This document shows, piece after piece, positions 405-37,940 of a stretch of 64,000 bases of DNA (positions are counted from its first letter, which is position 1; each line of letters opens with the position of its first letter). Where the stretch lies: contig NZ_MBES01000021.1 in assembly GCF_001954195.1 (NCBI RefSeq), positions 98,255 to 162,254 of the forward strand, given 5' to 3'. Origin of the DNA: Mycobacterium sp. IS-1264 (GTDB lineage Bacteria; Actinomycetota; Actinomycetes; Mycobacteriales; Mycobacteriaceae). The notes beneath the pieces were generated by a model. It did no database searches. It was not told where the DNA came from and was given only the letters and a program-made list of their open reading frames with translations. The translations under genes and the position numbers were made by a program.

Positions 405-419
405 GATAATACCATTCTC
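405..419. promoter_or_regulatory. Candidate operator, GAGAAT-type inverted repeat
   Basis: The plus strand reads GATAATACCATTCTC, a 15-base inverted repeat with one mismatched pair. It matches the perfect copies at 10389-10403 and 37926-37940. It lies in the 233-base gap upstream of the amidohydrolase gene, about 170 bases before that start, further than in the other copies. Regulator unknown. Confidence 0.45.
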
Positions 420-467
420 CCAGCCGTCGTCGAGCGCCGCGCGCGCCGCCGAAGTTGCCGGGACGGC

Positions 468-1373
468 TTAGTCCGGCGCCGCGTCGGCCCGGCCGACGGT
501 GACGCCCGCGGCCTTCTCCAGCGGTTTGATCACCGTCGTGAAATCGGAATCGGGACCCTGATCTCGCGCGGTCGTTTCCCAGAGCCGGCCGATCGTTTCG
601 GCAACGTCGGCGGGCACCCCAAGCGCCTTGGCTTCGTCGAGATACAGGCGCACATCCTTGAGCATCAGCCCGGTGGCGAAGCCGTAATCGAATGTTCGCG
701 GCAGGATGGCGCGGGGGAACTTGTCGCGACTTGCGCTGGTCGCACCCGAACCCGCGTTGAGCACCTCGATCATCACGCTGGGGTCGAGACCGGCCTTGAC
801 GCCCATCACCACGACTTCGGACGTCGCGGCCAAGACGTTGGCGGCCAGGATGTTGTTGACGAGCTTCATCGTCTGCGCCGAGCCCGGTTTGTCGCCGATG
901 TAGAACGGCCGGCCGATGGCCTCGAGTGCCGTTCGTATGACGTCGAATTCGTTGCGTGGGCCGGACACCATGACGGCGAGCGCTCCCTTTGCGGCTCCGC
1001 CGACCCCGCCGCTGACGGGGCTGTCGATCGCAACGATGTTCCGTGCGGCCAGACGATCATGGATTCGCACGGCCGTCTGGCTCCCGACGGTTGACACGTC
1101 GACATAGCGCCTGACCCGCGCGCCCTCAATCACTCCTTGCGCGCCCGTCGCGACTTCGAGTGACGCGGCGGGCGTGGGAAGGCTGGCCATCACGGTCTCG
1201 GTCCGGTCGGCGACCTCTTTGACCGACGACGCGGCGTGGGCCCCGAGCGCGACAACGCGCTCGAGCGCGTCGCCGCGAGTGTCGAAGGCGACGACGTCGT
1301 GATGCTCCTGGAGCAGCCGACGAGCCATGGGAAAACCCATGTTGCCCAGCCCGATGAACCCGAGCTGCGTCAT
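468..1373 (-). CDS. NAD(P)-dependent oxidoreductase, 3-hydroxyisobutyrate dehydrogenase family
   Basis: The 301-residue product is a full-length beta-hydroxyacid dehydrogenase. The N-terminal Rossmann motif GLGNMG lies at residues 8-13, the substrate loop DSPVSGGVGGA near 117-127, and the catalytic lysine with its asparagine in KLVNN at 170-174. These enzymes oxidise 3-hydroxy acids such as 3-hydroxyisobutyrate or tartronate semialdehyde with NAD(P); the exact substrate cannot be read here. The start overlaps the stop of the upstream carboxymuconolactone decarboxylase-like gene by ATGA, so it is the third gene of an ALDH-CMD-dehydrogenase operon that is probably controlled by the divergent TetR gene at 3273. 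Confidence 0.85.
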   Translation of the reverse strand: MTQLGFIGLGNMGFPMARRLLQEHHDVVAFDTRGDALERVVALGAHAASSVKEVADRTETVMASLPTPAASLEVATGAQGVIEGARVRRYVDVSTVGSQTAVRIHDRLAARNIVAIDSPVSGGVGGAAKGALAVMVSGPRNEFDVIRTALEAIGRPFYIGDKPGSAQTMKLVNNILAANVLAATSEVVVMGVKAGLDPSVMIEVLNAGSGATSASRDKFPRAILPRTFDYGFATGLMLKDVRLYLDEAKALGVPADVAETIGRLWETTARDQGPDSDFTTVIKPLEKAAGVTVGRADAAPD

Positions 1374-1759
1374 CGGTCCGAGGTCTTGTCGATTTCGGCG
1401 AATGCTTCGCGGGCGATACGAAAGCTGTCGACGGCGGCCGGCATGCCGGCATAGATCGCGACCTGCAGAAAGATCTCGCGGATCTCTTCCCGACTGACGC
1501 CGTTGGTGAGCGCCGCCTTGACGTGGGTTCGCAATTCGTTAGGCCGGTTGAGCACCGAGATCATCGCCAAGTTGAGCATGCTGCGGGTCTTGCGGGGCAG
1601 CTGTTCACGGCCCCACACCGCACCCCAGCAGTATTCGGTGAGGAGATCCTGCAGGGGTTTGGTGAAGTCATCGGCGTTGGCCAATGCCTGATTGACATAC
1701 TCCTCGCCCAGTACTGCGGAGCGAATCTGCAGCCCGCGCCGGTAGGTGTCGGGATCCAA
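1370..1759 (-). CDS. Carboxymuconolactone decarboxylase family protein
   Basis: The 129-residue product has the length and pattern of gamma-carboxymuconolactone decarboxylase (CMD) proteins: the EYCWGAVWGR segment, the RSMLNLAMI helix and a C-terminal GVSREEIREIFLQVAIYAG motif. It lacks the CxxC pair of the AhpD peroxidase branch, so it belongs with the decarboxylase-like branch. Family members are small all-helical cytoplasmic proteins, often in aromatic or lactone catabolic operons. It lies between an aldehyde dehydrogenase and a hydroxyacid dehydrogenase on one transcript; a specific reaction cannot be assigned. Confidence 0.82.
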   Translation of the reverse strand: MDPDTYRRGLQIRSAVLGEEYVNQALANADDFTKPLQDLLTEYCWGAVWGREQLPRKTRSMLNLAMISVLNRPNELRTHVKAALTNGVSREEIREIFLQVAIYAGMPAAVDSFRIAREAFAEIDKTSDR

Positions 1760-1776
1760 TGGTGTTCTCCTTTACC

Positions 1777-3204
1777 TCATTCCAGCCGCACGACGACCGT
1801 CTTGGTGGTCGTAAAGGTGTCGAGCGCTTGGTAACCCTTCTCGCGGCCGTACCCTGACTTCTTGAAGCCCCCGAACGGCAGCTCCACGCCGCCGCCGGCG
1901 CCGTAGGTGTTGACGTAGACCTGTCCCGCCTGGATCTCGGCGGCGAGCCGGTGGGCGCGGGACAGGTCGGTGGTCCACACCGCGGCGATCAACCCATATT
2001 GCGTGCCGTTGGCCAGGCTGATTGCCTCGTCCTCGTCGAAGAATCTGTTGACGGTGAGCACCGGACCAAAGATCTCCTCCTGCGCGATCGGCGAGGCGGG
2101 ATCGACGTCGGCGATCACGGTCGGAGCGAAATATGCACCATCGGCAAGCCGTGCGTCCTCCGGCGGGCCTCCGCCGCAACGGATTTCGCCCTTGATGTCG
2201 CCGCCGACCATCGATTGCACCCGTTGCTGCTGCTTGTGCGAGATCAGCGGTCCGAGATCGCGGTCGTCGATGCCGGGGCCAATCGTCGCCGACTCCATGA
2301 GCCGGCAGACCGTGTCCACCAAGTTGTCGTGAATCGAATCATGGGCCAGTAGCCGCGAGCCGGCCGAGCAGGTTTGACCGGCGTTCTGCAGGATCGCCTT
2401 GACGATCGACTCGGCGGCGCGGTCCAGATGCGCGTCGGGGAAAACTATTTGCGGCGATTTCCCGCCCAGTTCCAGGGTCGTCGGCACCACCCGGTCGGCG
2501 GCCGCATGGGCGACCACCGAGCCGATCTGGGTCGATCCGACAAAGCCCAGATGGTCGACCTCGGGGTGTGCGGTCAGGGCGGCGCCGGCTTCGGCGCCGA
2601 TTCCCGTCACCACGTTGAAGACGCCATGCGGTAGGCCGGCCTGAACCGCGAGCCGGGCCAATTCCACTGCGGTGCGCGGTGTTTCATCCGCCGGTTTGAC
2701 CACCGCGCAATTGCCCACCGCAATCGCCGGAGCCACGGCGCGGGCCAGCAGTTGCATCGGGTAGTTCCAGGCGACGATGTGACCGGTGACTCCGAAAGGT
2801 TCGCGTCGGGTATACGCGTGCAGATCCATTGACAGCGGGATGGTTTGGCCGTAGTAGCTGTCGATCGCGTGCCCGTAGAAACGGAAGTACCGAGCGGCGA
2901 CCGTCGCGTCCGCGCGCGCCTGGCTCAACGGCTTTCCGGTGTCCTCGCTTTCGATCCGGGCCAACCGCTCGTGATCATGGTCGATGAGATCGGCGACCCG
3001 CGTCAGCAGGGTCGCGCGTTCCGCCGGTGAAACGCCCCGCCAAGACTGCAGGGCCGGACGCGCCGCTGTCACCGCGCGATCGACTTCGTCTGTGCCGCCG
3101 CGCGCCACCGGTCCCAGCGATCGGCCGGTAGCCGGGTCGATGTTGTCGTACAGGTCCGCCGAGGCCACCGATTCGCCATCGATGAACGACTGTGTGATGG
3201 TCAC
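1777..3204 (-). CDS. Aldehyde dehydrogenase
   Basis: From the GTG at 3204 the product is 475 residues, the usual size for NAD(P)-dependent aldehyde dehydrogenases. It shows the catalytic glutamate in ELGGKSP near residue 245, the nucleophilic cysteine in GQTCSAG near 279 and the EEIFGPVL motif. I chose 3204 (preceded by CAGGGG) over the longer reading from 3282, because the longer form would run through the divergent TetR promoter and adds a non-homologous tail. It is the first gene of an operon with the CMD-like and hydroxyacid dehydrogenase genes and oxidises an unknown aldehyde to its acid. Confidence 0.88.
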   Translation of the reverse strand: MTITQSFIDGESVASADLYDNIDPATGRSLGPVARGGTDEVDRAVTAARPALQSWRGVSPAERATLLTRVADLIDHDHERLARIESEDTGKPLSQARADATVAARYFRFYGHAIDSYYGQTIPLSMDLHAYTRREPFGVTGHIVAWNYPMQLLARAVAPAIAVGNCAVVKPADETPRTAVELARLAVQAGLPHGVFNVVTGIGAEAGAALTAHPEVDHLGFVGSTQIGSVVAHAAADRVVPTTLELGGKSPQIVFPDAHLDRAAESIVKAILQNAGQTCSAGSRLLAHDSIHDNLVDTVCRLMESATIGPGIDDRDLGPLISHKQQQRVQSMVGGDIKGEIRCGGGPPEDARLADGAYFAPTVIADVDPASPIAQEEIFGPVLTVNRFFDEDEAISLANGTQYGLIAAVWTTDLSRAHRLAAEIQAGQVYVNTYGAGGGVELPFGGFKKSGYGREKGYQALDTFTTTKTVVVRLE

Positions 3205-3243
3205 GGTGACCCCTGACTGTCGTGCGTCGCGCCAACGATTATT

Positions 3244-3265
3244 TATACGACACTGTATATATACT
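3244..3265. promoter_or_regulatory. Divergent ALDH/TetR promoter with candidate TetR operator
   Basis: TATAC-GACACT-GTATA at 3244-3259 is a perfect 5+5 inverted repeat. It runs directly into a good -10 box, TATACT at 3260-3265, on the plus strand. The expected transcription start falls at about 3272, at the GTG of the TetR gene. Outer half-sites TGTCGT (3218-3223), ACGACA (3247-3252) and GTCGT (3270-3274) add further symmetry. The location suggests TetR autoregulation and repression of the ALDH operon. A related 16-mer lies at 6832-6847. Confidence 0.6.
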
Positions 3266-3272
3266 TTGCGTC

Positions 3273-3905
3273 GTGGTGACAACGACTCGGCGCGGACGGC
3301 CGACTCAGGCCGAGGCCAAGAAGCTACACCAGAAGTTGCGCAAGGCCGCCGTGGCGACGTTCGTCAAGTATGGCTACGACGGGGCCACCATGGAAGCGAT
3401 CGCCAGAGCGGCCGGCATCACGCGGCGCACTCTCTATGCTCGCTATCCCGACAAACGCGCAGTCTTCGTCGACGTCATTCCCTGGGCGCTGACGCGCAGG
3501 ACCGAGCGCGAAGCGGACAACGACATCGACGAACGCGACCTGCGCGCCTCCCTGATCGCACTCGGCCGGGCCGGACTCGCCCGCGCCATCGACCCGGACA
3601 TCGTGCGTCTGACACGCATTGCCATGAGCGAGTCGGCGCGGTTTCCCGAGTTCGCGGTCAGTGCGCACTCGATGACCTGGTCGCCACGCCACCGGCAGGT
3701 CATGGATCTGCTGCGACGCCACCAGGAGAACGGAAGCATCACGGTTGACGACCTGGAGCTAACCGCGGGCCACTTCATTGCGATGATCGAGCATCTACCC
3801 GCGCGACTGGCGGACTGCGGTATCTACCGCAGCGCCGACGAGGAGGAGCGGCACTTGCAGCACGCGGTCGATTTGTTCCTGCGCGGCGTCCAGCCCCGCG
3901 ACTGA
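3273..3905 (+). CDS. TetR/AcrR family transcriptional regulator
   Basis: The product of about 210 residues has a typical TetR DNA-binding domain: the helix-turn-helix AIARAAGITRRTLYARYPDK follows the first helix near residues 35-55, and a variable ligand-binding half follows. GTG at 3273 or 3276 is the likely start, because a TATACT box at 3260-3265 would start the mRNA at or within a base of it, giving a leaderless transcript; no ribosome site is present. It is divergent from the aldehyde dehydrogenase operon, which it probably represses, and is followed after 11 bases by a hydrolase gene in the same direction. Confidence 0.85.
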   Translation: MVTTTRRGRPTQAEAKKLHQKLRKAAVATFVKYGYDGATMEAIARAAGITRRTLYARYPDKRAVFVDVIPWALTRRTEREADNDIDERDLRASLIALGRAGLARAIDPDIVRLTRIAMSESARFPEFAVSAHSMTWSPRHRQVMDLLRRHQENGSITVDDLELTAGHFIAMIEHLPARLADCGIYRSADEEERHLQHAVDLFLRGVQPRD

Positions 3906-3916
3906 GGTCTCCCGCA

Positions 3917-4663
3917 ATGGCGTGGCCCGGTCTTGTGCTGGTGCACGGTGGCGCGCACGCCGCCGACTGCTGGGATCTGACCGTTGCCGAATTGGCCAGG
4001 CAGGCACCCGAATTGCGGGTCCTCGCGGTTGATCTGCCCGGCCGCGCCGGCAAGCCGGCGAATTTGGCGATCGTCACCGTCAGCGACTGGGTGAACTCCG
4101 CCGTAGCCGACATCGAGGACGCCGGGTTGGGCGAGGTTGTGGTCGTTGGGCATTCGATGGCGGGGCTCACCGTCCCGGGCATCGTCGCCAAGCTCGGGGC
4201 AGCGCGGGTGCGCGAGATGGTCCTGTTGGCGGCGTTCGTCCCACCGCAGGGCAAGTCGATCGTGGACACTCTGCGCGGGCCGCTTGCTCCGGTGGCGCGC
4301 TCGGCCCGCTGGATCGAAAGAAGGTCGTTCCCAATGCCTCCCGCTCTGGCGCGTTACGCATTCTGCAATGGCATGACGCGTGAGCAGCGGAGGCTAACGC
4401 TGTCGCGACTGTGCATGGAATCGCCGAACGTGATTTTCGAGCCAGCCGATCGCAGCGACCTGCCCGCCGACGTTCCGCGGACGTGGATCATGACGCTGGA
4501 TGATCGAGCGCTGTCGGTACGTCAGCAGCTGTACGCGATCAAATCGCTCGGCGGCGTCGACACCATGATTTGCCTCGACAGCTGCCACGACGTGATGTTC
4601 TCCGACCCCGCGCGCTTGGCCACCATCTTGGCGCGACGCTGCCGAGCGCACGCCGACAACTAG
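3917..4663 (+). CDS. Alpha/beta hydrolase
   Basis: The 248-residue product is a compact alpha/beta hydrolase. It has the oxyanion segment LVHGGAH at residues 8-14, the nucleophile elbow GHSMAG with Ser80, and a likely catalytic histidine in the C-terminal SCHDVMFSDP. This layout resembles the plant-esterase/hydroxynitrile-lyase-like branch (SABP2 type), which hydrolyses small esters. It lies 11 bases after the TetR gene and is probably cotranscribed with it. The substrate is unknown, but the neighbouring aldehyde dehydrogenase operon suggests a carbonyl or ester compound. Confidence 0.8.
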   Translation: MAWPGLVLVHGGAHAADCWDLTVAELARQAPELRVLAVDLPGRAGKPANLAIVTVSDWVNSAVADIEDAGLGEVVVVGHSMAGLTVPGIVAKLGAARVREMVLLAAFVPPQGKSIVDTLRGPLAPVARSARWIERRSFPMPPALARYAFCNGMTREQRRLTLSRLCMESPNVIFEPADRSDLPADVPRTWIMTLDDRALSVRQQLYAIKSLGGVDTMICLDSCHDVMFSDPARLATILARRCRAHADN

Positions 4664-4684
4664 GACAGGGCTTTCGCTGAAATT

Positions 4685-4708
4685 TGTCATTGACATTTGT
4701 CAGTGATG
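4685..4708. promoter_or_regulatory. Cluster of TGTCA/TGACA half-sites, candidate TetR operator
   Basis: TGTCA (4685-4689), TGACA (4691-4695), TGTCA (4698-4702) and TGATG (4704-4708) follow one another, forming two overlapping inverted repeats with 1- and 2-base centres. The middle element also contains TTGACA (4690-4695), a consensus -35 box. The site overlaps the start of the TetR gene that follows, so autoregulation is likely. Confidence 0.55.
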
Positions 4709-5335: not shown

Positions 5336-5373
5336 CCCGACCGGGCGTCAATCCAACGATTGGAGGTTCGACC

Positions 5374-5472
5374 GTGTGGCAGGAATTGGTATGCCTCGCC
5401 TTCGGATGGGGCGCAGCCGCTGCGCTGGTTGGTTTTTGGTACTACGTGATGCGCGGCATCGGCACTTTCTAG
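5374..5472 (+). CDS. Very small single-span membrane protein (32 aa)
   Basis: A GTG at 5374 follows a GGAGG ribosome site (5362-5366) at normal spacing and opens a 32-residue reading frame. The product is almost entirely hydrophobic between residues 4 and 24, with an aromatic-rich GFWYYVMRGIGTF end, and has the look of a one-span membrane subunit. It was found by following the ribosome site and is too short for a usual gene caller. It is the first of four closely spaced genes. No family was recognised; expression is an inference from the ribosome site and tight spacing. Confidence 0.55.
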   Translation: MWQELVCLAFGWGAAAALVGFWYYVMRGIGTF

Positions 5473-5489
5473 GGAAAGGGTGACCACCT

Positions 5490-5609: not shown

Positions 5610-5617
5610 GAGGAAAC

Positions 5618-6352: not shown

Positions 6353-6362
6353 GGAGAATCCA

Positions 6363-6812: not shown

Positions 6813-6831
6813 CCCGAACGTCGGACAATAA

Positions 6832-6847: not shown

Positions 6848-6876
6848 CTTAATCCCGGTTCGACGAGGAGTCACGG

Positions 6877-9602: not shown

Positions 9603-9612
9603 GTTGTCAGCC

Positions 9613-10388: not shown

Positions 10389-10403
10389 GAGAATGGTATT
10401 CTC
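10389..10403. promoter_or_regulatory. Candidate operator, perfect GAGAAT-GGT-ATTCTC
   Basis: GAGAATGGTATTCTC is a perfect 6+6 inverted repeat, 33 bases before the acyl-CoA dehydrogenase start at 10436. TATTCT at 10397-10402 could be the -10 box, so a bound repressor would block the promoter. Related copies lie at 405, 15480, 15647 and 37926. Confidence 0.6.
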
Positions 10404-10435: not shown

Positions 10436-11434
10436 ATGCTCTTGGAACTCGATGCCGATCAGCGGCTGTGGCAAAGCACGGTGCGCGATGTCGTCGCCAA
10501 GCAGTGCCCGCCGTCGCTGGTGCGCAGCGTCGCCGAGGACGGCGTGGATCCGAGCCCGCTGTGGAAGTCGTATGTCGACCAGGGCTGGACGGAGCTGAAT
10601 GATCCGGCCGGCACGGTGGAGCTGGCGATCGTGCTCGAAGAGTTGGGCCGTGCGACCGATCCCACCCCGTTCCTGGCGACGATGAGCCAGTTCGCGCCGC
10701 TGGCCGCGGACCGGTTCGACCCGCACGAGTCGGGGACCGCCGTGCACAACGGGGTGTCGGCGCATCGGAACTCCGACGGCTGGGTGTTGGACGGCACGGC
10801 ACGACACGTCCTCGATGGCGATCGCGTCGATCGGCTGGCGGTGGTCACCGACGCCGGGGTGTTCCTGGTGGCGGGTAATCAGGTATCCGTCCGGCGCTCT
10901 TCGGTTTTCGACCCGGTGCTGCACGTGGCCGACTTGTCCTTCGCCGGGATCCGGGTGTCCGAAGACGACCGGTTGACCGTTGACTCCGAGCGTGCCCACC
11001 ATGTTGCGTTGGCGGGCATGGCAATTCACATCGTCGGCGCCTGTCAGCGCATCCTGGATCTGGTCCTCGAGCACGTCCGCAGCCGGCAGCAATTCGGCGT
11101 GCCGATCGGTTCGTTCCAGGCCGTCCAGCACAAGTGCGCCGACATGCATGTCGCCGTGGAACGCGCCCGCGCGCTCGCTTACTTTGCCGCACTGACGATC
11201 TCGGCCGACGATCCCCGGCGCCGGCTGGCCGCCGCCATGGCCAAAGCGTCGGCGGGGGAGTGCCAGTCGCTGGTATTTCGGCACGGCCTACAACTGCACG
11301 GCGCAATGGGATTCACCTGGGAGAACGACTTGCAGTTTGCGCTCAAGCGGGCCAAAGCGGGCGAGCTCATGCTCGGCGGCGCGGCGGAACATCGGGCGCG
11401 GATCGCAGAGGAATATCGTGCAGCTGACTTTTGA
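10436..11434 (+). CDS. Acyl-CoA dehydrogenase, small subunit type (FadE)
   Basis: The 332-residue product is a short acyl-CoA dehydrogenase. The C-terminal helical domain is clear: VLEHVRSRQQFGVPIGSFQAVQHKCADMHV near residues 210-240 and the LQLHGAMGFTWENDL motif near 285. The middle barrel is short and degenerate, a pattern common in mycobacterial FadE pairs that form alpha2-beta2 heterotetramers with a second FadE. The next gene is that second FadE, overlapping by 17 bases. An AGGAGG site precedes ATG 10436. The pair should introduce a double bond into an acyl-CoA, possibly one with a ring or branched side chain. Confidence 0.85.
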   Translation: MLLELDADQRLWQSTVRDVVAKQCPPSLVRSVAEDGVDPSPLWKSYVDQGWTELNDPAGTVELAIVLEELGRATDPTPFLATMSQFAPLAADRFDPHESGTAVHNGVSAHRNSDGWVLDGTARHVLDGDRVDRLAVVTDAGVFLVAGNQVSVRRSSVFDPVLHVADLSFAGIRVSEDDRLTVDSERAHHVALAGMAIHIVGACQRILDLVLEHVRSRQQFGVPIGSFQAVQHKCADMHVAVERARALAYFAALTISADDPRRRLAAAMAKASAGECQSLVFRHGLQLHGAMGFTWENDLQFALKRAKAGELMLGGAAEHRARIAEEYRAADF

Positions 11435-12593
11435 TCCCGACGTCGAAGCGTTTCGGGCGGAGTTCGCGGCTTTCCTCGACGAGAACCTCCCTCCCACAAG
11501 CGAAACCATGGAGCGTCCCCGTTCGGTTTCGCATATGCCGCAGTGGGCGCGTCGCTGGCAGCGGCTGCTGTTCGACAACGGCTGGCTGCTGCCCGGTCAG
11601 CCCCCCGAATTCGGCGGGCGCAACGCGACGGTCATTCAGCAATTCGTCCACCTCGAGGAACTGTGCAGGCGGCGGATCTACCACAGCTTCAACCCGCAGG
11701 GCGTGAATATCATTGCGGCATCGCTGTTGACGTTCGGCAGCGACGAACAAAAGCGGCGATGGGCGGTGCCGATCCTGCGCGCCGAGATCACCGCCTCGCT
11801 CGGCATGAGCGAGCCCAGCGCCGGCTCCGATCTGGCGTCGCTACGAACCCGCGCGGTACTTGACGGCGATCACTTCGTAGTCAACGGCCAGAAGGTGTGG
11901 ACCTCCGGTGCCCACGACGCCGACGTGCTGTTGACTTTTGTGCGAACCAATCCGGACGCGCCAAAACACAAGGGCATCAGCGCACTACTGATCCCGACCG
12001 ACACCCCGGGCCTGGTGCGGCGGCCATTCCCGTCGATCTGCGCGGCCGACGACCTGGATTTCAACGAGGTGTTCTTCACCGACGTGCGGGTGCCGGCCGA
12101 AAACCTGGTCGGCGAGCTGGATCAGGGTTGGCGGGTTGCCAACGGATCGCTGGGGCACGAACGCACCATGATGTGGTTGGGTTTCGCAGACCGTATGGAC
12201 AATGCGATCGCCGATTTCCATCCCAGCACCGAGGTCGAACGCGACCAGTACGCGACCACGATCATGGACAAGCAGGCGCTACGCCTGTTGGGTTCCGTGG
12301 CCTTGGCCCGCGCTTCGCGGGGCGAAGACGACGTTGCCGCGATCTCGGTGCTCAAGCTGCTTGGGTCCGAGGCCGAGTTGCGCGGGATGGAGCTTGCCCT
12401 GCACAGCGCCGGATCCGACGGGCTCATCCACCCCGGCCAGACCGGCCCGTACGCGCCGATGAATCTCGACCACTATTTCGCCAGCTGGTTCGAGCGTTAT
12501 GCCCGAAGCTTTTCCGGCACGATCGCGGGTGGCACTTCCGAGATCCAGCGGAACATCATTGCCCAACGCGTGCTCGGTCTGCCGCGCGGCTAA
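11418..12593 (+). CDS. Acyl-CoA dehydrogenase (FadE), partner of the preceding gene
   Basis: The 391-residue product is a full acyl-CoA dehydrogenase. It shows the flavin-binding ITASLGMSEPSAGSDL segment near residue 130, VNGQKVWTSGA near 157, and the C-terminal GTIAGGTSEIQRNIIAQRVLGLPRG. GTG 11418 is chosen because AGAGGA lies six bases upstream and the N-terminus then starts at the first helix; this overlaps the upstream FadE gene by 17 bases. Together the two genes probably encode a heteromeric dehydrogenase of the kind used in steroid side-chain catabolism. The true substrate is unknown. Confidence 0.88.
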   Translation: MQLTFDPDVEAFRAEFAAFLDENLPPTSETMERPRSVSHMPQWARRWQRLLFDNGWLLPGQPPEFGGRNATVIQQFVHLEELCRRRIYHSFNPQGVNIIAASLLTFGSDEQKRRWAVPILRAEITASLGMSEPSAGSDLASLRTRAVLDGDHFVVNGQKVWTSGAHDADVLLTFVRTNPDAPKHKGISALLIPTDTPGLVRRPFPSICAADDLDFNEVFFTDVRVPAENLVGELDQGWRVANGSLGHERTMMWLGFADRMDNAIADFHPSTEVERDQYATTIMDKQALRLLGSVALARASRGEDDVAAISVLKLLGSEAELRGMELALHSAGSDGLIHPGQTGPYAPMNLDHYFASWFERYARSFSGTIAGGTSEIQRNIIAQRVLGLPRG

Positions 12594-13112: not shown

Positions 13113-14477
13113 TCAGTCGATTACCGCGGCTTCCTTCCGTTCGGTTACCGGCCTAGCGAGCTCTTGCTCGTCACAGATGCGTTGCAGCTTGTCGAGGGTC
13201 TCGTCGAGCCCGGCGCCGACCCTGGGGCCGGGTGTGAAGCTGGCCGGCAGCTTGCGCATGCCCTGGATTACCCCGATGGTCTCGTAGTGGACGGCGCCGT
13301 CGGGGTCGCAGCGGTAGTCGGGCATGCGGTCCAGGACGGCGGTCAACATGGATTTGAAGACGGTCCGCGCCACGTTGGATCCGATGCAGCGGTGCACGCC
13401 GATGCCGAAGCTGAAGTGCCGGTTGCCTTTGCGGTCGAGGATGATCTTGTCCGGTTCGGCGAATACCGACGGGTCGCGGTTGGCCATCGCCCACGAAATC
13501 CACAGCCGCTCACCTTCTTTGAAGCGATTGCCGTCGAGCTCGACGTCGTCGGAGAAGGTCCGGCCGTCACCGGGTGCCGGGGTGAAGTAGCGCAAGAACT
13601 CCTCGGTCGCGGGGTCGAGCAGGGTATCGCGGTTGTGCCGCAGCCGTTCCCGCTCGTCCGGGTTTTCGGACAGCCATTCAAGCGAGTGCGCGGTGAGGGC
13701 CGTCGTGGTGTCGAAGCCGCCGCCGATGACCAGTCCGAGGTTGCCCAGGATTTCCAGATCGGGAGCGGGCTCGCCGTCGATCCGCATCTCGACGAGGGCA
13801 TTGACGAGGCCGGGCCGCGGGTTGTCGCGGATCTCGATCATGCTGTTGACCAGGTCAAGCCCCATCTGCCGGTGCATCTCGGTGACACGCTGGATATCCG
13901 GGGAGTGTTCGGGTGTGTACACCGCGGCGTGAACGGGCTCGCTGTACATCTTCCATCGCTTCAGCGGAATGCCCAGCATCGCCAGCGTCAGCACGGCGGG
14001 CACGATGTTGGCCAGGTCGTCGACGAAGTCGATGCGGCCTTGTTCGATCTTCTCGTCGAGGCAGGCCCGCGTCACGTCGTCGACGAAGGGCGCCCAGCGC
14101 TTGACCGCGGCCGGCGACAGGTAGGGGTTGAGGACGGTGCGGTAGGTGCGATGCTCTGGGTCGTCCATCTCCAGGATGCCGCCGCGCACCCCGTTGATGC
14201 GGCTGGCCGTCGGGATCGAAATGCCTTTGTAGCCACGGCGTTCGCCGTTGACGTCGTGGTCGTTCGACACCGCGGGGCAGCGGGCGAGCTCGAAAACCTC
14301 GTGGCTGCCCGCGGCGACCCAATGCCCGCCGTAGGTGTCGCTCCACGCCATCGGGCACTTGGCGTGCATCTCCTCGGTGATCGTCTTGAACCGTGAGCGG
14401 TACTCCGCGGAATGCCGATCGAAGTGATAGCTCTTTTTCTTGCGATCGCTGTCGCTGACGACGTCGTCGACACTCAA
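13113..14477 (-). CDS. Cytochrome P450
   Basis: The 454-residue product is a complete soluble bacterial P450. It has the I-helix oxygen-activating motif GGGFDTTTAL, the EEFLRYFTPAP (ExxR region) segment, and the heme loop FSFGIGVHRCIG with the iron ligand Cys364. The start is TTG 14477 with AGGGAG at good spacing; no ATG or GTG of comparable quality is nearby. It lies 12 bases after the ferredoxin gene and below an SDR gene, so its electron donor is encoded on the same transcript. It should hydroxylate a hydrophobic substrate; the CYP family cannot be named reliably from memory. Confidence 0.9.
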   Translation of the reverse strand: MSVDDVVSDSDRKKKSYHFDRHSAEYRSRFKTITEEMHAKCPMAWSDTYGGHWVAAGSHEVFELARCPAVSNDHDVNGERRGYKGISIPTASRINGVRGGILEMDDPEHRTYRTVLNPYLSPAAVKRWAPFVDDVTRACLDEKIEQGRIDFVDDLANIVPAVLTLAMLGIPLKRWKMYSEPVHAAVYTPEHSPDIQRVTEMHRQMGLDLVNSMIEIRDNPRPGLVNALVEMRIDGEPAPDLEILGNLGLVIGGGFDTTTALTAHSLEWLSENPDERERLRHNRDTLLDPATEEFLRYFTPAPGDGRTFSDDVELDGNRFKEGERLWISWAMANRDPSVFAEPDKIILDRKGNRHFSFGIGVHRCIGSNVARTVFKSMLTAVLDRMPDYRCDPDGAVHYETIGVIQGMRKLPASFTPGPRVGAGLDETLDKLQRICDEQELARPVTERKEAAVID

Positions 14478-14489
14478 GCGCTGTCTCCC

Positions 14490-14687
14490 TTATTCATCCG
14501 TGACGATGATGGCCTGCTCGGGACAGGATTGCGCGGCTTCGCGGACCCGGCCCTGATGTTCGGCCGGCACGATTTCGTCGATCGCCGACGAACTTCCGTC
14601 GATGTCGCTGAGCTCGAACGAATCCGGGGCAATCATCGAGCACAGGGTGTGGCCCTGGCATCGTTCGGAATCAACCCAGACCTTCAC
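14490..14687 (-). CDS. Ferredoxin, 3Fe-4S type, P450 electron donor
   Basis: The 65-residue product has the single-cluster ferredoxin pattern CQGHTLC near residues 10-16 and SCPEQA near 54-59. The second cysteine of the usual CxxCxxC is replaced by histidine (C-x2-H-x2-C), as in the mycobacterial ferredoxins that partner P450s and usually carry a 3Fe-4S cluster. It lies directly upstream of the P450 gene and downstream of an SDR gene on the same strand, with GGAGACACC before the start. It most probably delivers electrons to that P450. Confidence 0.9.
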   Translation of the reverse strand: MKVWVDSERCQGHTLCSMIAPDSFELSDIDGSSSAIDEIVPAEHQGRVREAAQSCPEQAIIVTDE

Positions 14688-14717
14688 GGTGTCTCCTCCA
14701 CGGATCGGGTGGTGCGG

Positions 14718-15419
14718 TCAGGTGTTTCGGCCGCCGTTGACGCCCAATATCTGGCCGGTGATGTAGCCGGCTTCCTCGGATACCAGGAAGGCGCACGCCG
14801 CCGCGATGTCTTCCGGCTTGCCCATCCGGCGCACGGGGGTGCGGGCGATGGTCTCCTCGATGTTGCCCAGGTACCCGTGCTTTTCGGCGCTGCGCAGCAT
14901 CGGGGTGTCGATGAAACCGGGCGGCACGGCGTTGACCGTGATGCCGCTGGGCCCGTACTCGAGTGCTAGCGACTTGGTGAGCCCGTTGACCGCGGATTTG
15001 GCCGCCACGTAGTGACTCATGTAGGGCGCGCCCGAATGCGTACTCGACGACGAGATGTTGACGATCCGCCCCCACCCGGCCTCCACCATGTCCGGCAGCA
15101 CCGCCTGAATGGTGTGGAAAACCCCGTTGAGGTTGACGTCGATCACGCGGCGCCAGTCTTCGAACGTGATGTTGTTGAACCGCTTGAACCCATCTAGGCC
15201 CGCGGCGTTGACCAGAACCGTCACCGGCCCAAGCCGGGCGCGGATCGCCGACAGCGCGGCGTCCACCTGGCCGCGGTCCGTCACGTCGGCGGTGAAGGAG
15301 AGATCGGTGTCGGACGGCCTGAGGTCGATGGTCGCGACGTCGAGACCGTCGGCGCGGAGCCGATGCGCGACGGCCAGGCCAATGCCGGATCCACCACCGG
15401 TGACCACCGCGGTCTTCAT
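14718..15419 (-). CDS. Short-chain dehydrogenase/reductase
   Basis: The 233-residue product is a classical SDR: the cofactor motif TGGGSGIG lies at residues 7-14, NAAG near 91, the catalytic serine in NISSSS near 136, and the YVAAK pair near 151-155. It ends with the usual TGQILGVNGG. It would oxidise an alcohol or reduce a ketone with NAD(P). It is the first gene of the SDR-ferredoxin-P450 operon and could oxidise the alcohol made by the P450. Two candidate GAGAAT-type operators lie upstream, between it and the divergent ALDH gene. Confidence 0.88.
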   Translation of the reverse strand: MKTAVVTGGGSGIGLAVAHRLRADGLDVATIDLRPSDTDLSFTADVTDRGQVDAALSAIRARLGPVTVLVNAAGLDGFKRFNNITFEDWRRVIDVNLNGVFHTIQAVLPDMVEAGWGRIVNISSSSTHSGAPYMSHYVAAKSAVNGLTKSLALEYGPSGITVNAVPPGFIDTPMLRSAEKHGYLGNIEETIARTPVRRMGKPEDIAAACAFLVSEEAGYITGQILGVNGGRNT

Positions 15420-15479: not shown

Positions 15480-15494
15480 GAGAACCTTACTCTC
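15480..15494. promoter_or_regulatory. Candidate operator, GAGAAC-CTT-ACTCTC
   Basis: The 15-base stretch GAGAACCTTACTCTC agrees with the perfect copies at most positions (outer GAGA/TCTC conserved), 61 bases before the SDR start. A second perfect palindrome, CTCTCGCGCGAGAG (15490-15503), overlaps its right end. On the minus strand CATAAT or TAATCG just downstream could be the -10 box. Confidence 0.45.
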
Positions 15495-15646: not shown

Positions 15647-15661
15647 GAGAATGAAATTTTC
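15647..15661. promoter_or_regulatory. Candidate operator, GAGAAT-GAA-ATTTTC
   Basis: GAGAATGAAATTTTC is a 15-base inverted repeat with one mismatch, 25 bases before the aldehyde dehydrogenase start at 15686. With the site at 15480-15494 it places one copy near each of the two divergent operons. Confidence 0.5.
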
Positions 15662-15685: not shown

Positions 15686-17188
15686 ATGCCAGCGCAGGAC
15701 ACGGTGTCGACCAGTGCGGACGTCGCGCCCGAGTCACAGGCCGACCGGCGGCTGTTGATCGACGGCCGGCTCGTCGCTGCGGACAAGACATTCCCGTCGA
15801 TCAATCCCGCGACCGGTGAGGTCCTCGGGAATGCGCCGGACGCCGGCATAGGGGAGGCCGAAGCGGCGATCGCGGCGGCCCGCAGGGCGTTCGACACCAC
15901 GAGCTGGTCGACCGACGTCGAGCTGCGCATCCGCTGCCTCGACCAGCTGCATCAGGCACTGACCGACCACGCCGACGAGTTGCGCGAGCTGACCATTGCC
16001 GAGGTCGGCGCCACCCGCGCACTGACTCACGGCGCTCAGCTCGACGAGCCGATCGGCATCGTGCGCTTCTATGCGGACTTGCTGCGCAACTATCAGTTCT
16101 CCGAAGACCTCGGCGAGAAGGAATCGCGGGGCATGCTGCATCACCGCTGGGTGGAGAAGGAAGCCGCGGGAGTCGTCGCCGCCATCATCGCCTACAACTA
16201 TCCGAACCAGCTCGCGCTGGCCAAGCTGGCGCCGGCGCTTGCCGCCGGATGCACGGTGGTACTCAAGGGCGCGCCGGACACCCCGCTGGTGACCCTGGCG
16301 CTGGGTGAATTGATCGTCAATCACACCGACATCCCGGCCGGTGTGGTGAACGTGCTCAGCTCGTCGGATCCCGCTGTCGGACCCGCGCTGACCACCAGCC
16401 CGGACGTCGACGTAGTGACCTTCACCGGGTCGACCGCAGTTGGCCGCAAGATCATGGCCGCCGCGAGCGAGACCGTCAAACGCGTCTTTTTGGAGTTGGG
16501 TGGCAAGTCGGCGGTGATCATGCTCGACGACGCCGACTTCGCCAGCGCCAGCATGTTCGCGGCGTTCAGCATGGTCACTCACGCCGGGCAGGGCTGCGCG
16601 CTCACGTCCCGGCTGCTAGTCCCCAAGTCGCACCATGACGAGATCGTCGACCTGATCGCGGCCAACTTCGCCAAGGTGCGCCACGGTGACCCGGCCCATC
16701 CGAAGACGTTGATGGGACCGCTGATCAACGAGCGCCAGCGCGACAAGGTCGACGGCATGGTCCAGCGCGCCGTCGCCGCAGGGGCGACCCTGGTCACCGG
16801 CGGCAAGCGGCTGGATCCCGGCTATTTCTACGCGCCCACGTTGCTCACCAACGTCGACCCCGACAGCGAGATCGCTCAGGACGAGGTCTTCGGGCCGGTG
16901 CTCGTCGTCATCGCATTCGATGACGACGACGACGCGGTGCGCATCGCGAACAACTCGATCTACGGTCTGGCCGGCGCCGTCTTCAGTCGCGACCAAGACC
17001 GGGCACTCGCGGTGGCACGCCGCATCCGCGCCGGATCGTTTTCCGTCAACGGGGGCAACTACTTCGGTGCGGACAGCCCGTTCGGGGGGTTCAAGCAGTC
17101 CGGCGTCGGGCGCGAGATGGGTGTCGCCGGGCTCGAAGAGTTCTTGGAGCGCAAGACTTTTGCCGTTCCCTCGGGGGCTTCCGCATGA
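15686..17188 (+). CDS. Aldehyde dehydrogenase
   Basis: From ATG 15686 (AGGGAG upstream) the product is 500 residues. It shows VVAAIIAYNYPNQLAL in the cofactor domain, the catalytic glutamate in FLELGGKSAV, the nucleophilic cysteine in AGQGCALTSRL and EVFGPVL. A frame open further upstream would run through the operator, so it was not used. The next gene, a CoA-transferase, overlaps by ATGA. The pair suggests oxidation of an aldehyde to an acid followed by CoA activation, on the same pathway as the divergent P450-ferredoxin-SDR operon. Confidence 0.9.
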   Translation: MPAQDTVSTSADVAPESQADRRLLIDGRLVAADKTFPSINPATGEVLGNAPDAGIGEAEAAIAAARRAFDTTSWSTDVELRIRCLDQLHQALTDHADELRELTIAEVGATRALTHGAQLDEPIGIVRFYADLLRNYQFSEDLGEKESRGMLHHRWVEKEAAGVVAAIIAYNYPNQLALAKLAPALAAGCTVVLKGAPDTPLVTLALGELIVNHTDIPAGVVNVLSSSDPAVGPALTTSPDVDVVTFTGSTAVGRKIMAAASETVKRVFLELGGKSAVIMLDDADFASASMFAAFSMVTHAGQGCALTSRLLVPKSHHDEIVDLIAANFAKVRHGDPAHPKTLMGPLINERQRDKVDGMVQRAVAAGATLVTGGKRLDPGYFYAPTLLTNVDPDSEIAQDEVFGPVLVVIAFDDDDDAVRIANNSIYGLAGAVFSRDQDRALAVARRIRAGSFSVNGGNYFGADSPFGGFKQSGVGREMGVAGLEEFLERKTFAVPSGASA

Positions 17189-18390
17189 GGCCGCTGGAGG
17201 GCATCCGTGTCCTGGAAGTCGCCATGTACGGGTTCGTTCCATCGGCGGGCGCCGTGCTGGCGGAGTGGGGCGCCGAGGTGATCAAGGTCGAGCACGCCGT
17301 CACCGGCGATCCGCAGCGTGGGCTTCGGCAGACCGGCATGTTGCGCGTGGAGGGCGACCCGAATCCCAACATCGAGCACGCCAATCGTGGGAAGCGCAGC
17401 ATCGGGTTGGATATGTCGGTGCCCGAGGGCAAGGAAGTGCTGTACGAACTGGCGCGCCGATCCGATGTCTTCCTGACCAGTTTCCTGCCCGGCGCACGGC
17501 AGAAGTTCGGCATCGACGTCGACGACATCCGGGCGGTGAACCCGGCGATCATCTACGCGCGGGGCAGCGCGCTCGGCCCGCGCGGCGGGGAGGCGACCAA
17601 GGGCGGCTACGACATGACCGCCTTTTGGTGTCGCGCCGGAACCGCCGCCACGATCACGCCCGCGGGGATGCCCGGCATGATCGCGCCGCCCGGCCCGGCC
17701 TACGGCGACACCATCTCCGGCACCAACCTCGCCGGTGGCATTGCCGCGGCGCTGCTCAAGCGCGAGCGCACCGGGGAGCCATCCGTCGTCGACGTCTCCC
17801 TGCTGGGCAGCGGCCTGTGGTCGATGGGCCACACGGTGGCGTTGACAAAGCACCTCGGCCAGCGACTGGAGGCGCCACCGCCGGGCGTGCACGGTGCGCC
17901 CAATAATCCATTAGTCGGGCTGTACGCGACGTCCGACGGCCGCTACATATCCTTCGTGATGATGCAACCGACCAAGTTCTGGGGCGACGTCTGCCGGCAT
18001 ATCGAGAGGCCCGAACTGGCCGACGATCCGCGCTTCGCCACCGTCGAGAAAATCGCCGCTAATACGCCAGATGCGGTCGAGATCTTGACCAAGGTCATCG
18101 CCACCCGCACGCTTGCCGAGTGGAGCGAACGCTTTGCCACACTCGCGGGACCGTGGGCGCCGGTGCAGGACACCCTGCAGGCCGCCGAGGACGCGCAGAT
18201 CCGCGCGAACGAGTATCTAGTGCGCGCAGGCGAACTCGAACTCGTCGCCAATCCGGTTCAGTTCGATGTCGCTCCGCCGCAGACGGGGCCGGCGCCCGGA
18301 TTCGCCGAGCAGACCGACGAGATCTTGATGGAAACCGGGCTCGACTGGGACCGCATCATCGAACTCAAGACGGCCGGCGCCGTCACCTAA
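17185..18390 (+). CDS. CoA transferase, family III (CaiB/BaiF type)
   Basis: The 401-residue product has the family III CoA-transferase fold signatures: MRPLEGIRVLEVA at the N-terminus, VLAEWGAEVIKVEH near residues 25-38, NRGKRSIGLDM near 69-79, and YARGSALGPRG near 125-135. Members move CoA between carboxylic acids or racemise 2-methylacyl-CoAs. Directly after the aldehyde dehydrogenase (4-base overlap), it would activate the acid product as a CoA thioester for the acyl-CoA dehydrogenases encoded nearby. The substrate cannot be read from the sequence. Confidence 0.9.
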   Translation: MRPLEGIRVLEVAMYGFVPSAGAVLAEWGAEVIKVEHAVTGDPQRGLRQTGMLRVEGDPNPNIEHANRGKRSIGLDMSVPEGKEVLYELARRSDVFLTSFLPGARQKFGIDVDDIRAVNPAIIYARGSALGPRGGEATKGGYDMTAFWCRAGTAATITPAGMPGMIAPPGPAYGDTISGTNLAGGIAAALLKRERTGEPSVVDVSLLGSGLWSMGHTVALTKHLGQRLEAPPPGVHGAPNNPLVGLYATSDGRYISFVMMQPTKFWGDVCRHIERPELADDPRFATVEKIAANTPDAVEILTKVIATRTLAEWSERFATLAGPWAPVQDTLQAAEDAQIRANEYLVRAGELELVANPVQFDVAPPQTGPAPGFAEQTDEILMETGLDWDRIIELKTAGAVT

Positions 18391-20459: not shown

Positions 20460-20478
20460 CGAAGGAGGTGGGACGGCA

Positions 20479-34096: not shown

Positions 34097-34099
34097 TTC

Positions 34100-35574: not shown

Positions 35575-36276
35575 ATGACATCGGCCCGCAGGATCGGGGC
35601 GCCGGACGCGAAGAACCGCGGCCTGCTGCTCGACGCGGCCGAGCAGCTGATGGTGGAGGAGGGGTACGCGGGGGTCACGTCGCGCCGGCTGGCGAGCAAG
35701 GCCGGGCTCAAACCGCAGCTGGTCCACTATTACTTCCGCACCATGGAGGAGTTGTTCCTCGAGGTCTTCCGGCGCCGCGCCGAGGAAGGCCTTCAAGTGC
35801 AGGCGAAAGCGCTGCAATCGCCCCAGCCGCTGTGGGCGCTGTGGAGGTTCGGCACCGATCCAGCGTTCACCCGGATTTCCATGGAATTCATGGCGCTGGC
35901 GAATCACCGTAAGGAGATGCGGGCCGAAATCGCTTACTACGCGGAGCGTTTCCGGGAGGAACAATGCCAGGCGGTGACGTCGGCGTTGCAGCGCTACGGG
36001 GTGTCCCGGGAGGATATGCCGCCGGTGGTGTGGACGGTGCTGATGACGAGCCTGTCGCGGTTTCTGGTGCTCGAGCAGGCGGTGGGAATTACCGGCGGTC
36101 ACGCCGAAACCTTGGAGCTCGTCGAAAGTTACCTGCGCCGCCTGGAGGGCGAGCCGCAGCCGATCGAGGGTGTGCCGGCGAACTGGGTGGTTCACCAGTT
36201 CCGGATCGAACAGAGCACGCCCCGGGGCCCGTCCTTGGACACGACGACGGCCCCGTCCACCGACAGCTCGCAATGA
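35575..36276 (+). CDS. TetR/AcrR family transcriptional regulator
   Basis: From ATG 35575 (GGGGAGCAGGGG upstream) the product has 233 residues. The helix-turn-helix TSRRLASKAGLKPQLVHYYFRT lies around residues 35-56. The last 35 residues (VPANWVVHQFRIEQ onward) are low in structure and are encoded antisense to the end of the next gene, so they may be a neutral extension. It is divergent from the P450 gene, which it probably regulates through the TGCTnAGCA sites. Confidence 0.85.
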   Translation: MTSARRIGAPDAKNRGLLLDAAEQLMVEEGYAGVTSRRLASKAGLKPQLVHYYFRTMEELFLEVFRRRAEEGLQVQAKALQSPQPLWALWRFGTDPAFTRISMEFMALANHRKEMRAEIAYYAERFREEQCQAVTSALQRYGVSREDMPPVVWTVLMTSLSRFLVLEQAVGITGGHAETLELVESYLRRLEGEPQPIEGVPANWVVHQFRIEQSTPRGPSLDTTTAPSTDSSQ

Positions 36277-36608
36277 AACTGCGGCGTGCCCGGCTCGGGG
36301 CCGGTGTTGACCACCACCATGGCCCAGTATTCGGGTTTCGCCTCGTTCAGTTCGAAGCTCCACGGATGGTCCGGTGCGATGTCGGTTTTGACGTTGGGCG
36401 TGAACCGGTAGGGGTCGTGGCTGTAGTCGGAGAAGATCGCCGGCTCTTGATCGATGTAATAGATGTTGGCGTAGATCGGGTTCTGGACGCTGATGGTGTA
36501 CTTCACGTGATGCATGACCGGGTCGTCCGCGTGTGCGGGTCCGGCGCCCGTGAGTAAACCGGCCCCTGCCAATAGCACTGCGACCAACATTCTGCATGCG
36601 GTGGTCAT
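36192..36608 (-). CDS. Secreted protein, MmpS-like periplasmic domain
   Basis: ATG 36608 has GGAGGA upstream and overlaps the stop of the enoyl-CoA hydratase gene by ATGA. The 138-residue product has a Sec signal (MLVAVLLAGAGLLTGAGPAHA, cleavage after AHA) and a mature domain of beta-strand character. The C-terminal part, CELSVDGAVVVSKDGPRGVLCSI, resembles the CxIxVDGxxV…C pattern of MmpS proteins, but the membrane anchor is replaced by a signal peptide. Its last 85 bases overlap the 3' end of the TetR gene on the other strand. Confidence 0.7.
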   Translation of the reverse strand: MTTACRMLVAVLLAGAGLLTGAGPAHADDPVMHHVKYTISVQNPIYANIYYIDQEPAIFSDYSHDPYRFTPNVKTDIAPDHPWSFELNEAKPEYWAMVVVNTGPEPGTPQFHCELSVDGAVVVSKDGPRGVLCSIRNW

Positions 36609-37351
36609 GTCGTTCCTCCGGTGCCCGAGGGTGGGTTGCCGCTGCGCTTCATTACCCGCTCCGCGGCCCGCCAGTGTGCGTCGGCAACCCACAGCCGTGC
36701 AAAGGATGCTATCGCCTCGTCCGGCGAAACTCCGCTGATTACCCGCTTTATCTCGGTCGCGGGGTGACGAGCGAGCGACCTCGCGACCGATCGCCAACCC
36801 TCGTCGAACGACGGGCGGGGCAACACCAGATCCACCAGCCCGATCCGTTCGGCCTCGATCGCGGTGAGGGGGGTGCCGGTGCCGGCCAGAAGTAGCGCCC
36901 TGCCCTTCCCGACGAGCGCGGCCAGTCGCTCGGCGCCGCCCCAGGCCGGCATGATTTCCAGCTCCACCTGATTGAAGCCGATCTTGATGTCGTCGGCGGC
37001 CACCCGAATGTCGGCGGCGACAGCGACTTCGGCGCCACCGCCAAAGGCGTGCCCGTTGAGGGCGGCGATCACCGGAGCCGGGAAGCCGGCCAGTTGATCG
37101 CAGATCGACCGCATCCGCTTCGCCATCGCCGAGGCGTCTTCCTCGGTGCGCAATGCGCTGAGTTCCTTGAGGTCGCCGCCGGAGACGAAGGCCCGATCGC
37201 CGGCGCCCGTGATGACCAGGGCTCTGGCGCCGGCGGCCGCGTCGAGCGCCTTTTCCAGTTGGTCCATGGTGTCCAACGCGATCGCATTGCGCGCGTGCGG
37301 GCGATCGATGGTGAGCACGGCCAGCCCATCGTCGACCTCCAGGTCCACCAT
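36605..37351 (-). CDS. Enoyl-CoA hydratase/isomerase family protein
   Basis: The 248-residue product (ATG 37351, AGGGAG upstream; TTG 37372 is an alternative) is a crotonase-fold protein. It has the oxyanion-hole segments AFVSGGDLKEL near residue 60 and NGHAFGGGAEVAVAADIRVA near 97-116, with IGFNQVELEIMPAWGG following. One of the two typical hydratase glutamates is replaced around this loop, so the exact reaction (hydratase, isomerase or hydrolase) is open. It precedes the MmpS-like gene. Inverted GAGAA half-sites lie upstream at 37390-37407. Confidence 0.82.
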   Translation of the reverse strand: MVDLEVDDGLAVLTIDRPHARNAIALDTMDQLEKALDAAAGARALVITGAGDRAFVSGGDLKELSALRTEEDASAMAKRMRSICDQLAGFPAPVIAALNGHAFGGGAEVAVAADIRVAADDIKIGFNQVELEIMPAWGGAERLAALVGKGRALLLAGTGTPLTAIEAERIGLVDLVLPRPSFDEGWRSVARSLARHPATEIKRVISGVSPDEAIASFARLWVADAHWRAAERVMKRSGNPPSGTGGTT

Positions 37352-37460
37352 GCGTCGTCGCTCCCTGGCCAATACGGCCGATATTGGCGTTCTCTTATCG
37401 GGAGAATAACATCATCGCAAGGGCCGAGAACTTTCCGCGACGAGGCTGTGAGGTGGCGCA

Positions 37461-37880
37461 ATGGTCAACCGAATCGCGGCGGCCGGTATGGCGCTCGCTG
37501 TCGCCGTCCTGGGTGGCTGCACCCCACGGCCGCAAACCCCGCTCGGCGGCACCGCATCGGTGACCGTCAACGGAAACGATGCAAAATTCCAGATCGTGAA
37601 GTGCACCCAGATGCAGTGGTATCGGACGATCGACATCGGCGGCAATTTCGCCGGGGCCACCGTCGCCGTTGACGAGCGTGCGGCATCAGCGACTACCGAG
37701 TCCGTCCAGATCCGCAATTTGGGCGGCTTCACCGGAAGGTACTCCCACGGCGACGGGGAGGACGCCCAGACCAGCCTGAGCAACGGCAAGCTCACGGTCT
37801 CCGGTACGGCCCACGGCTCCAAGGCCGACAACCCGAACGAACCGGCAACCGCCACGTTCAAAATCACTGTCACCTGCTGA
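37461..37880 (+). CDS. LpqH/19-kDa antigen family lipoprotein
   Basis: The 139-residue product has a lipoprotein signal with lipobox VLGGC ending at Cys20. The mature domain has the LpqH family pattern: ASVTVNGNDAKFQIVKCTQM near residues 32-52, QIRNLGGFTGRY, SLSNGKLTVSGTA and a final FKITVTC with the second cysteine. LpqH-type proteins are exported lipoproteins of mycobacteria and Toll-like receptor 2 ligands in pathogens. The gene stands alone between the divergent hydratase unit and the amidohydrolase operon. Confidence 0.9.
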   Translation: MVNRIAAAGMALAVAVLGGCTPRPQTPLGGTASVTVNGNDAKFQIVKCTQMQWYRTIDIGGNFAGATVAVDERAASATTESVQIRNLGGFTGRYSHGDGEDAQTSLSNGKLTVSGTAHGSKADNPNEPATATFKITVTC

Positions 37881-37925
37881 TCGCATGCGCTTGGACGGGG
37901 TGCACGTTGCGGTCGGGGCTGGGTA

Positions 37926-37940
37926 GAGAATACTATTCTC
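37926..37940. promoter_or_regulatory. Candidate operator, perfect GAGAAT-ACT-ATTCTC
   Basis: GAGAATACTATTCTC is a perfect inverted repeat, and the flanking A and T extend it to 17 bases (37925-37941). TACTAT at 37931-37936 could be the -10 box. It lies 23 bases before the amidohydrolase start at 37963, which has AAGGAGGA. Confidence 0.6.

Follow-up and report, generated by a model that had tools for sequence, protein, structure and literature searches.

What controls the degradative genes that stand behind copies of one 15-bp inverted repeat, GAGAAT-N3-ATTCTC, in a mycobacterial contig, and do these genes belong to a single system? We addressed this for a stretch of 64,000 nucleotides from Mycobacterium sp. 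IS-1264 (the window), which covers positions 98255-162254 of C21, a 162-kb contig of the 4.92-Mb draft genome. A sequence-only reading of the window had proposed that the repeat marks the promoters of one regulon, and hence of one pathway, with a regulator that might be encoded outside the window. Such a candidate is found 39 kb to the left of the window: a TetR-type gene, C21:58493-59143, that co-occurs with the motif and has the motif in its own promoter region. On the strength of sequence comparison, it is very probable that the palindrome is the operator of this one repressor. The regulon would be autoregulated, and its genes look suited to a polycyclic carboxylic acid of steroid- or terpenoid-like type.

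The candidate gene encodes 216 amino acids and matches the TetR_N domain (PF00440) with 31.4 bits (cut-off 24); no NCBIfam model passes its cut-off for this protein. One perfect copy of the palindrome lies between the TetR gene and a divergent acyl-CoA dehydrogenase (FadE) gene, and another lies just behind the TetR gene. Among 80 named TetR loci kept from 406 relatives (nearly all Mycobacterium, one Mycolicibacterium), a perfect palindrome is present 129-145 bp before the TetR start in 79, the exception being M. tilburgii, and a perfect or one-mismatch copy is present just behind the gene in 70. At 33 TetR loci outside the genus, the upstream site is perfect in 25, has one mismatch in 3, and two mismatches in 1. 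For all 40 fetched TetR loci, which include these 33, the counts are 25 perfect, 5 with one mismatch, 5 with two, and 5 with no upstream copy; the recognition region of the protein is nearly invariant across the 40. The predicted structure (mean predicted local distance difference test score, pLDDT, 85.7) has an all-helical TetR fold with a C-terminal ligand-binding domain. Its nearest folds are EthR2, Rv0078, and FadR entries, which share the fold at identities of only about 12-22%, and the fold does not reveal the ligand.

Across genomes, the TetR gene and the motif occur together. Orthologues were accepted at E<1e-80 within the genus and at E<=1e-40 in a family search outside it. Among 148 Mycobacterium genomes, 119 have both, 2 have only the TetR, 3 only the motif, and 24 neither, and the corresponding numbers for 186 genomes of other genera are 31, 1, 12, and 142 (Fisher 3e-22 and 2e-24, values that ignore shared descent and come from sets with different orthologue thresholds, which weighs against taking them at face value). 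The 32 TetR-bearing genomes outside the genus come from eight other genera; 25 of them have at least two motif copies, versus none of the 154 genomes without the TetR, where the 12 motif-bearing cases have single copies. Of the 3 Mycobacterium genomes with only the motif, one (G147) has eight copies and the other two have one each. Within the genus, a perfect copy is found in 122 of 148 genomes, 115 of which have four to nine, compared with 1 of 148 for a reversed control.

In the window itself, a pattern scan recovered both perfect copies that the sequence-only reading had placed at 10389-10403 and 37926-37940. The variants that it had named at 405-419, 15480-15494, and 15647-15661 are real and conserved in relatives, with one mismatch each at 405-419 and 15647-15661 and two at 15480-15494. 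The weaker half-sites it had reported at 37389-37407 are present as parts of two decayed palindromes 22 bp apart, which form an everted pair (37380-37394, three mismatches; 37402-37416, two mismatches). All of the named copies are intergenic, and the degradative families assigned to the neighbouring genes are correct. The features of the window are as follows (SDR, short-chain dehydrogenase/reductase; ALDH, aldehyde dehydrogenase).

1..234, minus strand: start of an amidohydrolase (PF04909) gene, a presumed regulon member (whole gene C21:97397-98488)
405..419: putative variant operator GATAATACCATTCTC (gene-side reading GAGAATGGTATTATC), about 170 bp before the leftward amidohydrolase gene
10389..10403: putative perfect operator GAGAATGGTATTCTC before paired acyl-CoA dehydrogenases
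10436..12593, plus strand: small (332 amino acids) and large (391 amino acids) acyl-CoA dehydrogenase genes, likely a heteromeric FadE pair
13113..15419, minus strand: SDR, ferredoxin, and cytochrome P450 genes, likely one operon
15480..15494: putative variant operator GAGAACCTTACTCTC, about 60 bp before the SDR gene
15647..15661: putative variant operator GAGAATGAAATTTTC, with a 24-bp gap to the ALDH start
15686..18390, plus strand: ALDH and CoA-transferase family III genes
36605..37351, minus strand: enoyl-CoA hydratase/isomerase gene
37380..37416: two decayed palindromes with everted half-sites before the enoyl-CoA hydratase gene
37926..37940: putative perfect operator GAGAATACTATTCTC, with a 22-bp gap to the amidohydrolase start codon
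37963..39153, plus strand: amidohydrolase (PF04909) gene
39150..40592, plus strand: FadD3-family acyl-CoA ligase gene (NF005801, 743.9 bits, cut-off 657)

Beyond the C21:97397 amidohydrolase gene, the next 2 kb (C21:96217-94937 side) include a Rieske-domain gene and another PF04909 gene.

All 51 perfect sites of seven other genomes were fetched, which together with six on C21 gives 57. A perfect copy stands before the orthologue in six of the seven genomes for the 10389 site and in all seven for the 37926 site, where it is 22-23 bp from the start. For imperfect copies, we analyzed for each gene the 30 best loci, our own included, of 68, 77, and 73 matches in 98 genomes. At the 405 site, 29 of 30 loci have an upstream copy with at most two mismatches and 25 have one with at most one. 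The 15480 site takes the form GAGAA[CT]NNTACTCTC at 30 of 30 loci, and at 24 of the same loci the ALDH-proximal copy (15647) has at most two mismatches. At least one member of the everted pair is within two mismatches at 26 of 30. Simple shuffles of upstream regions reach two or fewer mismatches in 0.5-1.5% of cases (1.3% for the hydratase).

In five of the seven other genomes, the C21:97397 amidohydrolase and C21:108690 FadE genes diverge across one site, and at three further loci two operators lie upstream of the amidohydrolase gene. Here the two genes stand about 10 kb apart, with other genes between them; copies 405 and 10389 thus appear to be the two operators of a single ancestral region that was later split. 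The intervening segment (468-10266) carries HIBADH-like, CMD, ALDH, hydrolase, LuxC-type acyl-CoA reductase, and nitroreductase genes and two TetR genes, and looks like an insertion between the two operators. In all, there are four TetR genes in the window (3351-3905, 4727-5335, 30968-31546, and 35575-36276); as had been noted from the sequence, none adjoins any named copy, and they were rejected as regulators for this reason.

Chance does not account for the number or placement of the copies. A scan of the window at up to two mismatches gave nine matches (0.98 expected), a number reached by none of 100 dinucleotide shuffles. The whole genome contains seven perfect copies, six on C21 and one on contig C72; 11 places, 9 of them on C21, are within one mismatch, compared with 1 for a reversed-pattern control. 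Genes on C21 were called by a simple codon-based script after joining the contig. C21 has 101 perfect 6-N3-6 palindromes with 89 arms, of which GAGAAT is the commonest (6); all 6 of these are intergenic, versus 11 of 95 palindromes with other arms. The 13 top C21 places (scores of at least 16.4) found by a matrix trained on other genomes only are all intergenic, on a contig that is 93.7% coding; the highest score in three shuffles and in the reversed sequence is 14.8. Consistently, none of the 57 perfect sites in eight genomes is inside a called gene, and 44 of the 51 fetched sites lie beside the start of an orthologue of our own gene set. The three findings named beforehand as refuting the proposal were looked for, and none was made: the motif is far above random frequency genome-wide, its copies lie upstream of genes and not within them, and it is kept in related genomes.

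Two two-mismatch places in the window, 6354 (score 14.3) and 56513 (13.9, within a gene), fall under the reversed-sequence control of 14.8 and were rejected as operators. Another two-mismatch place, 30326, scores 17.4, above the controls; its gene has an uncertain start, and a one-mismatch copy in one other genome precedes a gene with 44% identity to the one that follows here. To the left of the window, C21:72780 (14.0) is under the control maximum and precedes a P450 gene whose orthologue in one other genome (G101) has a perfect copy.

Twelve intergenic regions carry the site, and each also has a copy in other genomes; a candidate thirteenth is on contig C53. The data support the proposed single regulon with its regulator outside the window. 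The span, given before as at least 38 kb, is larger: about 119 kb (C21:17094-136194), plus C72 and C53. Co-transcription of the downstream genes was judged from strand and spacing, and the regions are as follows.

C21:17094: ferredoxin on one side; FadD, a FadE pair, and enoyl-CoA hydratase on the other
C21:22812: thiolase and MeaB-like GTPase
C21:58411: P450 and two SDRs
C21:59266: TetR on one side, FadE on the other
C21:66605: CMD-family protein, Rieske oxygenase, amidohydrolase, SnoaL-like protein, and a FadE pair on one side; amidohydrolase, FadE, hydratase, and thiolase on the other
C21:79801 (two mismatches): fused ChsH2-type zinc-ribbon/OB and Ltp-type thiolase-like protein
C21:98659 (window 405): two amidohydrolases with the Rieske-domain gene between them
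C21:108643 (window 10389): FadE pair
C21:113734 and 113901 (window 15480 and 15647): SDR-ferredoxin-P450; ALDH-CoA transferase
C21:135634/135656 (window 37380-37416): enoyl-CoA hydratase
C21:136180 (window 37926): amidohydrolase and FadD3-family ligase
C72:25519 (perfect): APH-family, SDR, and FadE genes
C53:72514 (one mismatch, the candidate thirteenth region): before SDR and APH-family genes

At C21:22812, the called start of the thiolase gene runs into the site; the true start probably lies further downstream.

The products of these genes could make up one catabolic route. It would comprise oxygenation by P450/ferredoxin and Rieske enzymes, CoA ligation, including that by the FadD3-family ligase, dehydrogenation by paired FadEs, hydration, cleavage by thiolase or the Ltp-type protein, and steps catalyzed by PF04909 amidohydrolases. 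Three small FadE genes (266-332 amino acids) each adjoin a large one. Thiolase matches to steroid-thiolase models are under the cut-offs of those models; these matches and the fused ChsH2-type/Ltp-type protein suggest a polycyclic substrate, which at present is a class-level guess. Naming a P450 substrate from solved relatives was given up, since these are too distant: P450cin, the nearest to the window P450, matches with 159 bits, and CYP130, in a separate comparison, with 223 bits.

The regulon might instead serve several unrelated substrates, or a general lipid or stress response, an alternative we consider unlikely while giving it real weight. The gene content is broad (P450s, Rieske proteins, amidohydrolases, ALDH), the C72 copy is followed by an APH-family gene and then by SDR and FadE genes, and two other genomes (G020 and G082) have a perfect copy between the IclR and MhpC-like hydrolase genes of an aromatic pathway. 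Set against this, the genes add up to a beta-oxidation-like route that is fairly complete and includes paired FadEs, a FadD3-family ligase, and an Ltp-type protein. Moreover, four target genes gave strong matches only in TetR-bearing genomes among those searched: matches to the C21:97397 amidohydrolase (E<=1e-140), the enoyl-CoA hydratase (E<=1e-90), and the ALDH (E<=1e-200) were found in 76, 73, and 67 of 80 genomes with the TetR, respectively, and in none of 18 without it, and at a strict cut-off the Ltp-type gene was found in 48 of 50 with and 0 of 10 without. From this co-inheritance and the gene content, the step from one regulon to one pathway is plausible.

That a different DNA-binding protein owns the motif, the C21:58493 TetR gene being merely one of its targets, seems improbable. 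The genome has many other TetR-like genes, and genome G147 (93% complete, 7% contaminated) has eight perfect copies with no TetR orthologue found, which also counts against assigning the operator to this TetR. Yet the motif and the TetR co-occur both in the genus and in the 32 genomes of eight other genera, and down to 58% protein identity the palindrome keeps its place about 95-161 bp ahead of the TetR gene. A paralogue clade points the same way. Seven Mycobacterium genomes (L137, L239-L244) have a second TetR paralogue with an upstream site GAGAA[GT]-N3-CTTCTC at about -140; both arms are changed in five (GAGAAG-N3-CTTCTC) and one arm in two (the T form). The second protein has Asn for Asp70, just after the recognition helix, and differs at other residues too. 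Here is a hint, from the sequences, that protein and operator may change together.

Several further findings weigh against a single TetR-controlled regulon as we draw it. One genome (G056) has a TetR 77% identical to ours without a perfect motif, its one-mismatch copy lying 138 bp upstream, and in another (G089) nothing within two mismatches of the palindrome stands upstream of the TetR gene; 4 of the 33 TetR loci outside the genus also lack an upstream site. Seven of the 51 fetched sites do not adjoin the start of any orthologue from our gene set. The variant sites are weaker than the consensus, one of them is about 170 bp from its gene, and the counts for their conservation come from the 30 best-matching loci of longer lists. 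The site before the Ltp-type gene recurs at 16 of the 30 best loci, chosen from 50 matches, and at none of the 10 most distant. Finally, family resemblance is the sole basis for the proposed substrate class.

How might a TetR dimer bound to this palindrome control transcription? A TANNNT hexamer, with A first or T last in the spacer, is present in 45 of 57 perfect sites, versus about a third expected by base composition, and the distance to the nearest start codon is 18-51 bp for 41 of the 57 and 70-252 bp for the rest. Since this -10-like hexamer is usually part of the palindrome, whose end mostly lies 18-51 bp from the start codon, the bound dimer would often cover the -10 region and block RNA polymerase. 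Through the site shared with the divergent acyl-CoA dehydrogenase gene, the repressor would limit its own synthesis. The ligand of the C-terminal domain would be an intermediate of the pathway, probably an acyl-CoA ester, that frees the dimer and opens the promoters together; such acyl-CoA control would resemble that of FadR, a parallel drawn from fold and gene content. The same hexamer and spacing could mark the palindrome as a core promoter element (a dyad -10 region read by an alternative sigma factor), but this is very improbable, as the symmetry is conserved and not one strand only, several conserved copies are 120-250 bp from the gene, the hexamer is missing in 12 of 57 sites, and the sites vanish along with the TetR gene.

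The proposed regulon resembles that of KstR2 in mycobacteria, for which binding and derepression were shown experimentally (Kendall et al., 2010; PMC3068626), whereas they are inferred here. Both systems have a TetR-type repressor gene inside a catabolic cluster, with a site in its own promoter and conservation in actinomycetes, and both have a short palindrome (14 bp for KstR2) in divergent promoters, 22-82 bp from most start codons there, a spacing similar to ours. They differ in operator and extent: AnCAAGnnCTTGnT in three promoter regions for KstR2, and GAGAAT-N3-ATTCTC in twelve intergenic regions here (PMC3068626). Indeed, the palindrome conserved at our sites is GAGAAT-N3-ATTCTC and not the KstR2 operator. 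The KstR2 structure 4w97 matches our TetR model by fold, with 20% identity. The KstR2 gene set includes a FadD3-type ligase and paired FadEs. Two FadD3-family genes in the genome exceed the curated cut-off, the second being on contig C78, which also holds the KstR gene (C78:46541-47092, 335 bits). Our TetR differs from KstR, the cholesterol regulator, with 20.4 bits against the NF033703 cut-off of 280.

The case is evenly balanced, in our judgement, for a broader proposal. Under it, a second steroid-like catabolic regulon would run parallel to KstR/KstR2 in most mycobacteria and would act on a polycyclic isoprenoid that is abundant in the environment (terpenoid, hopanoid, or modified sterol). 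This regulon would have a FadD3-family ligase, an Ltp-type aldolase, three FadE pairs, and PF04909 amidohydrolases of its own; it would come and go as one block together with its TetR switch, and a duplicated TetR would have evolved the matching new operator GAGAAG-N3-CTTCTC. Through the likely regulator and operator, scattered FadE, FadD, P450, and amidohydrolase genes become one testable pathway in about four-fifths of sampled Mycobacterium genomes (119 of 148 with both the TetR and a perfect motif). Its substrate could be found through the inducer of a single reporter promoter, and the paralogue with the changed operator offers a natural test of how TetR DNA specificity changes.

No description of the motif or regulon was found among the listed titles and abstract openings of open-licence PMC literature. 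PMC4482099 analyses 30 TetR regulators by Rv number and gives motifs as logo images and not as text, so a match there is possible. GAGAATT words in PMC4757040 are predicted Rv0081 sites.

Other genes near the sites were also noted. After the ALDH/CoA-transferase genes, a 470-bp gap leads to a Mce operon (window 18860-28277; two MlaE permeases and a Mce4_CUP1 protein among those scanned). Its upstream match (C21:116993) has four mismatches, so membership in the regulon is not claimed.

A split B12-dependent acyl-CoA mutase is encoded at C21:12364-14367, and the MeaB-like GTPase gene (24004-24891) lies behind the motif-bearing thiolase gene. No good operator was found before the mutase pair (12323, three mismatches, score 6.7). 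We rejected 2-hydroxyisobutyryl-CoA mutase, which has Ile in place of the Tyr89 of methylmalonyl-CoA mutase, as an identity for this pair, since in the alignment it carries the Tyr and Arg of the methylmalonyl enzyme.

At C21:33431-36821, genes for an IclR regulator, an MhpC-like hydrolase, and a 3-(3-hydroxyphenyl)propionate hydroxylase have only a three-mismatch place, 34195. A phenolic acid decarboxylase gene (C21:22249-22767; PF05870, 255 bits) lies just before the motif-bearing thiolase gene. Left of the window, C21:79835-92200 on the minus strand (L016) is a single open reading frame of about 4122 amino acids. In the 4066 amino acids scanned, BTAD, AAA_16, and guanylate-cyclase-like domains come first and four SnoaL_2 stretches after them, which suggests a giant regulator-like protein fused to SnoaL repeats.

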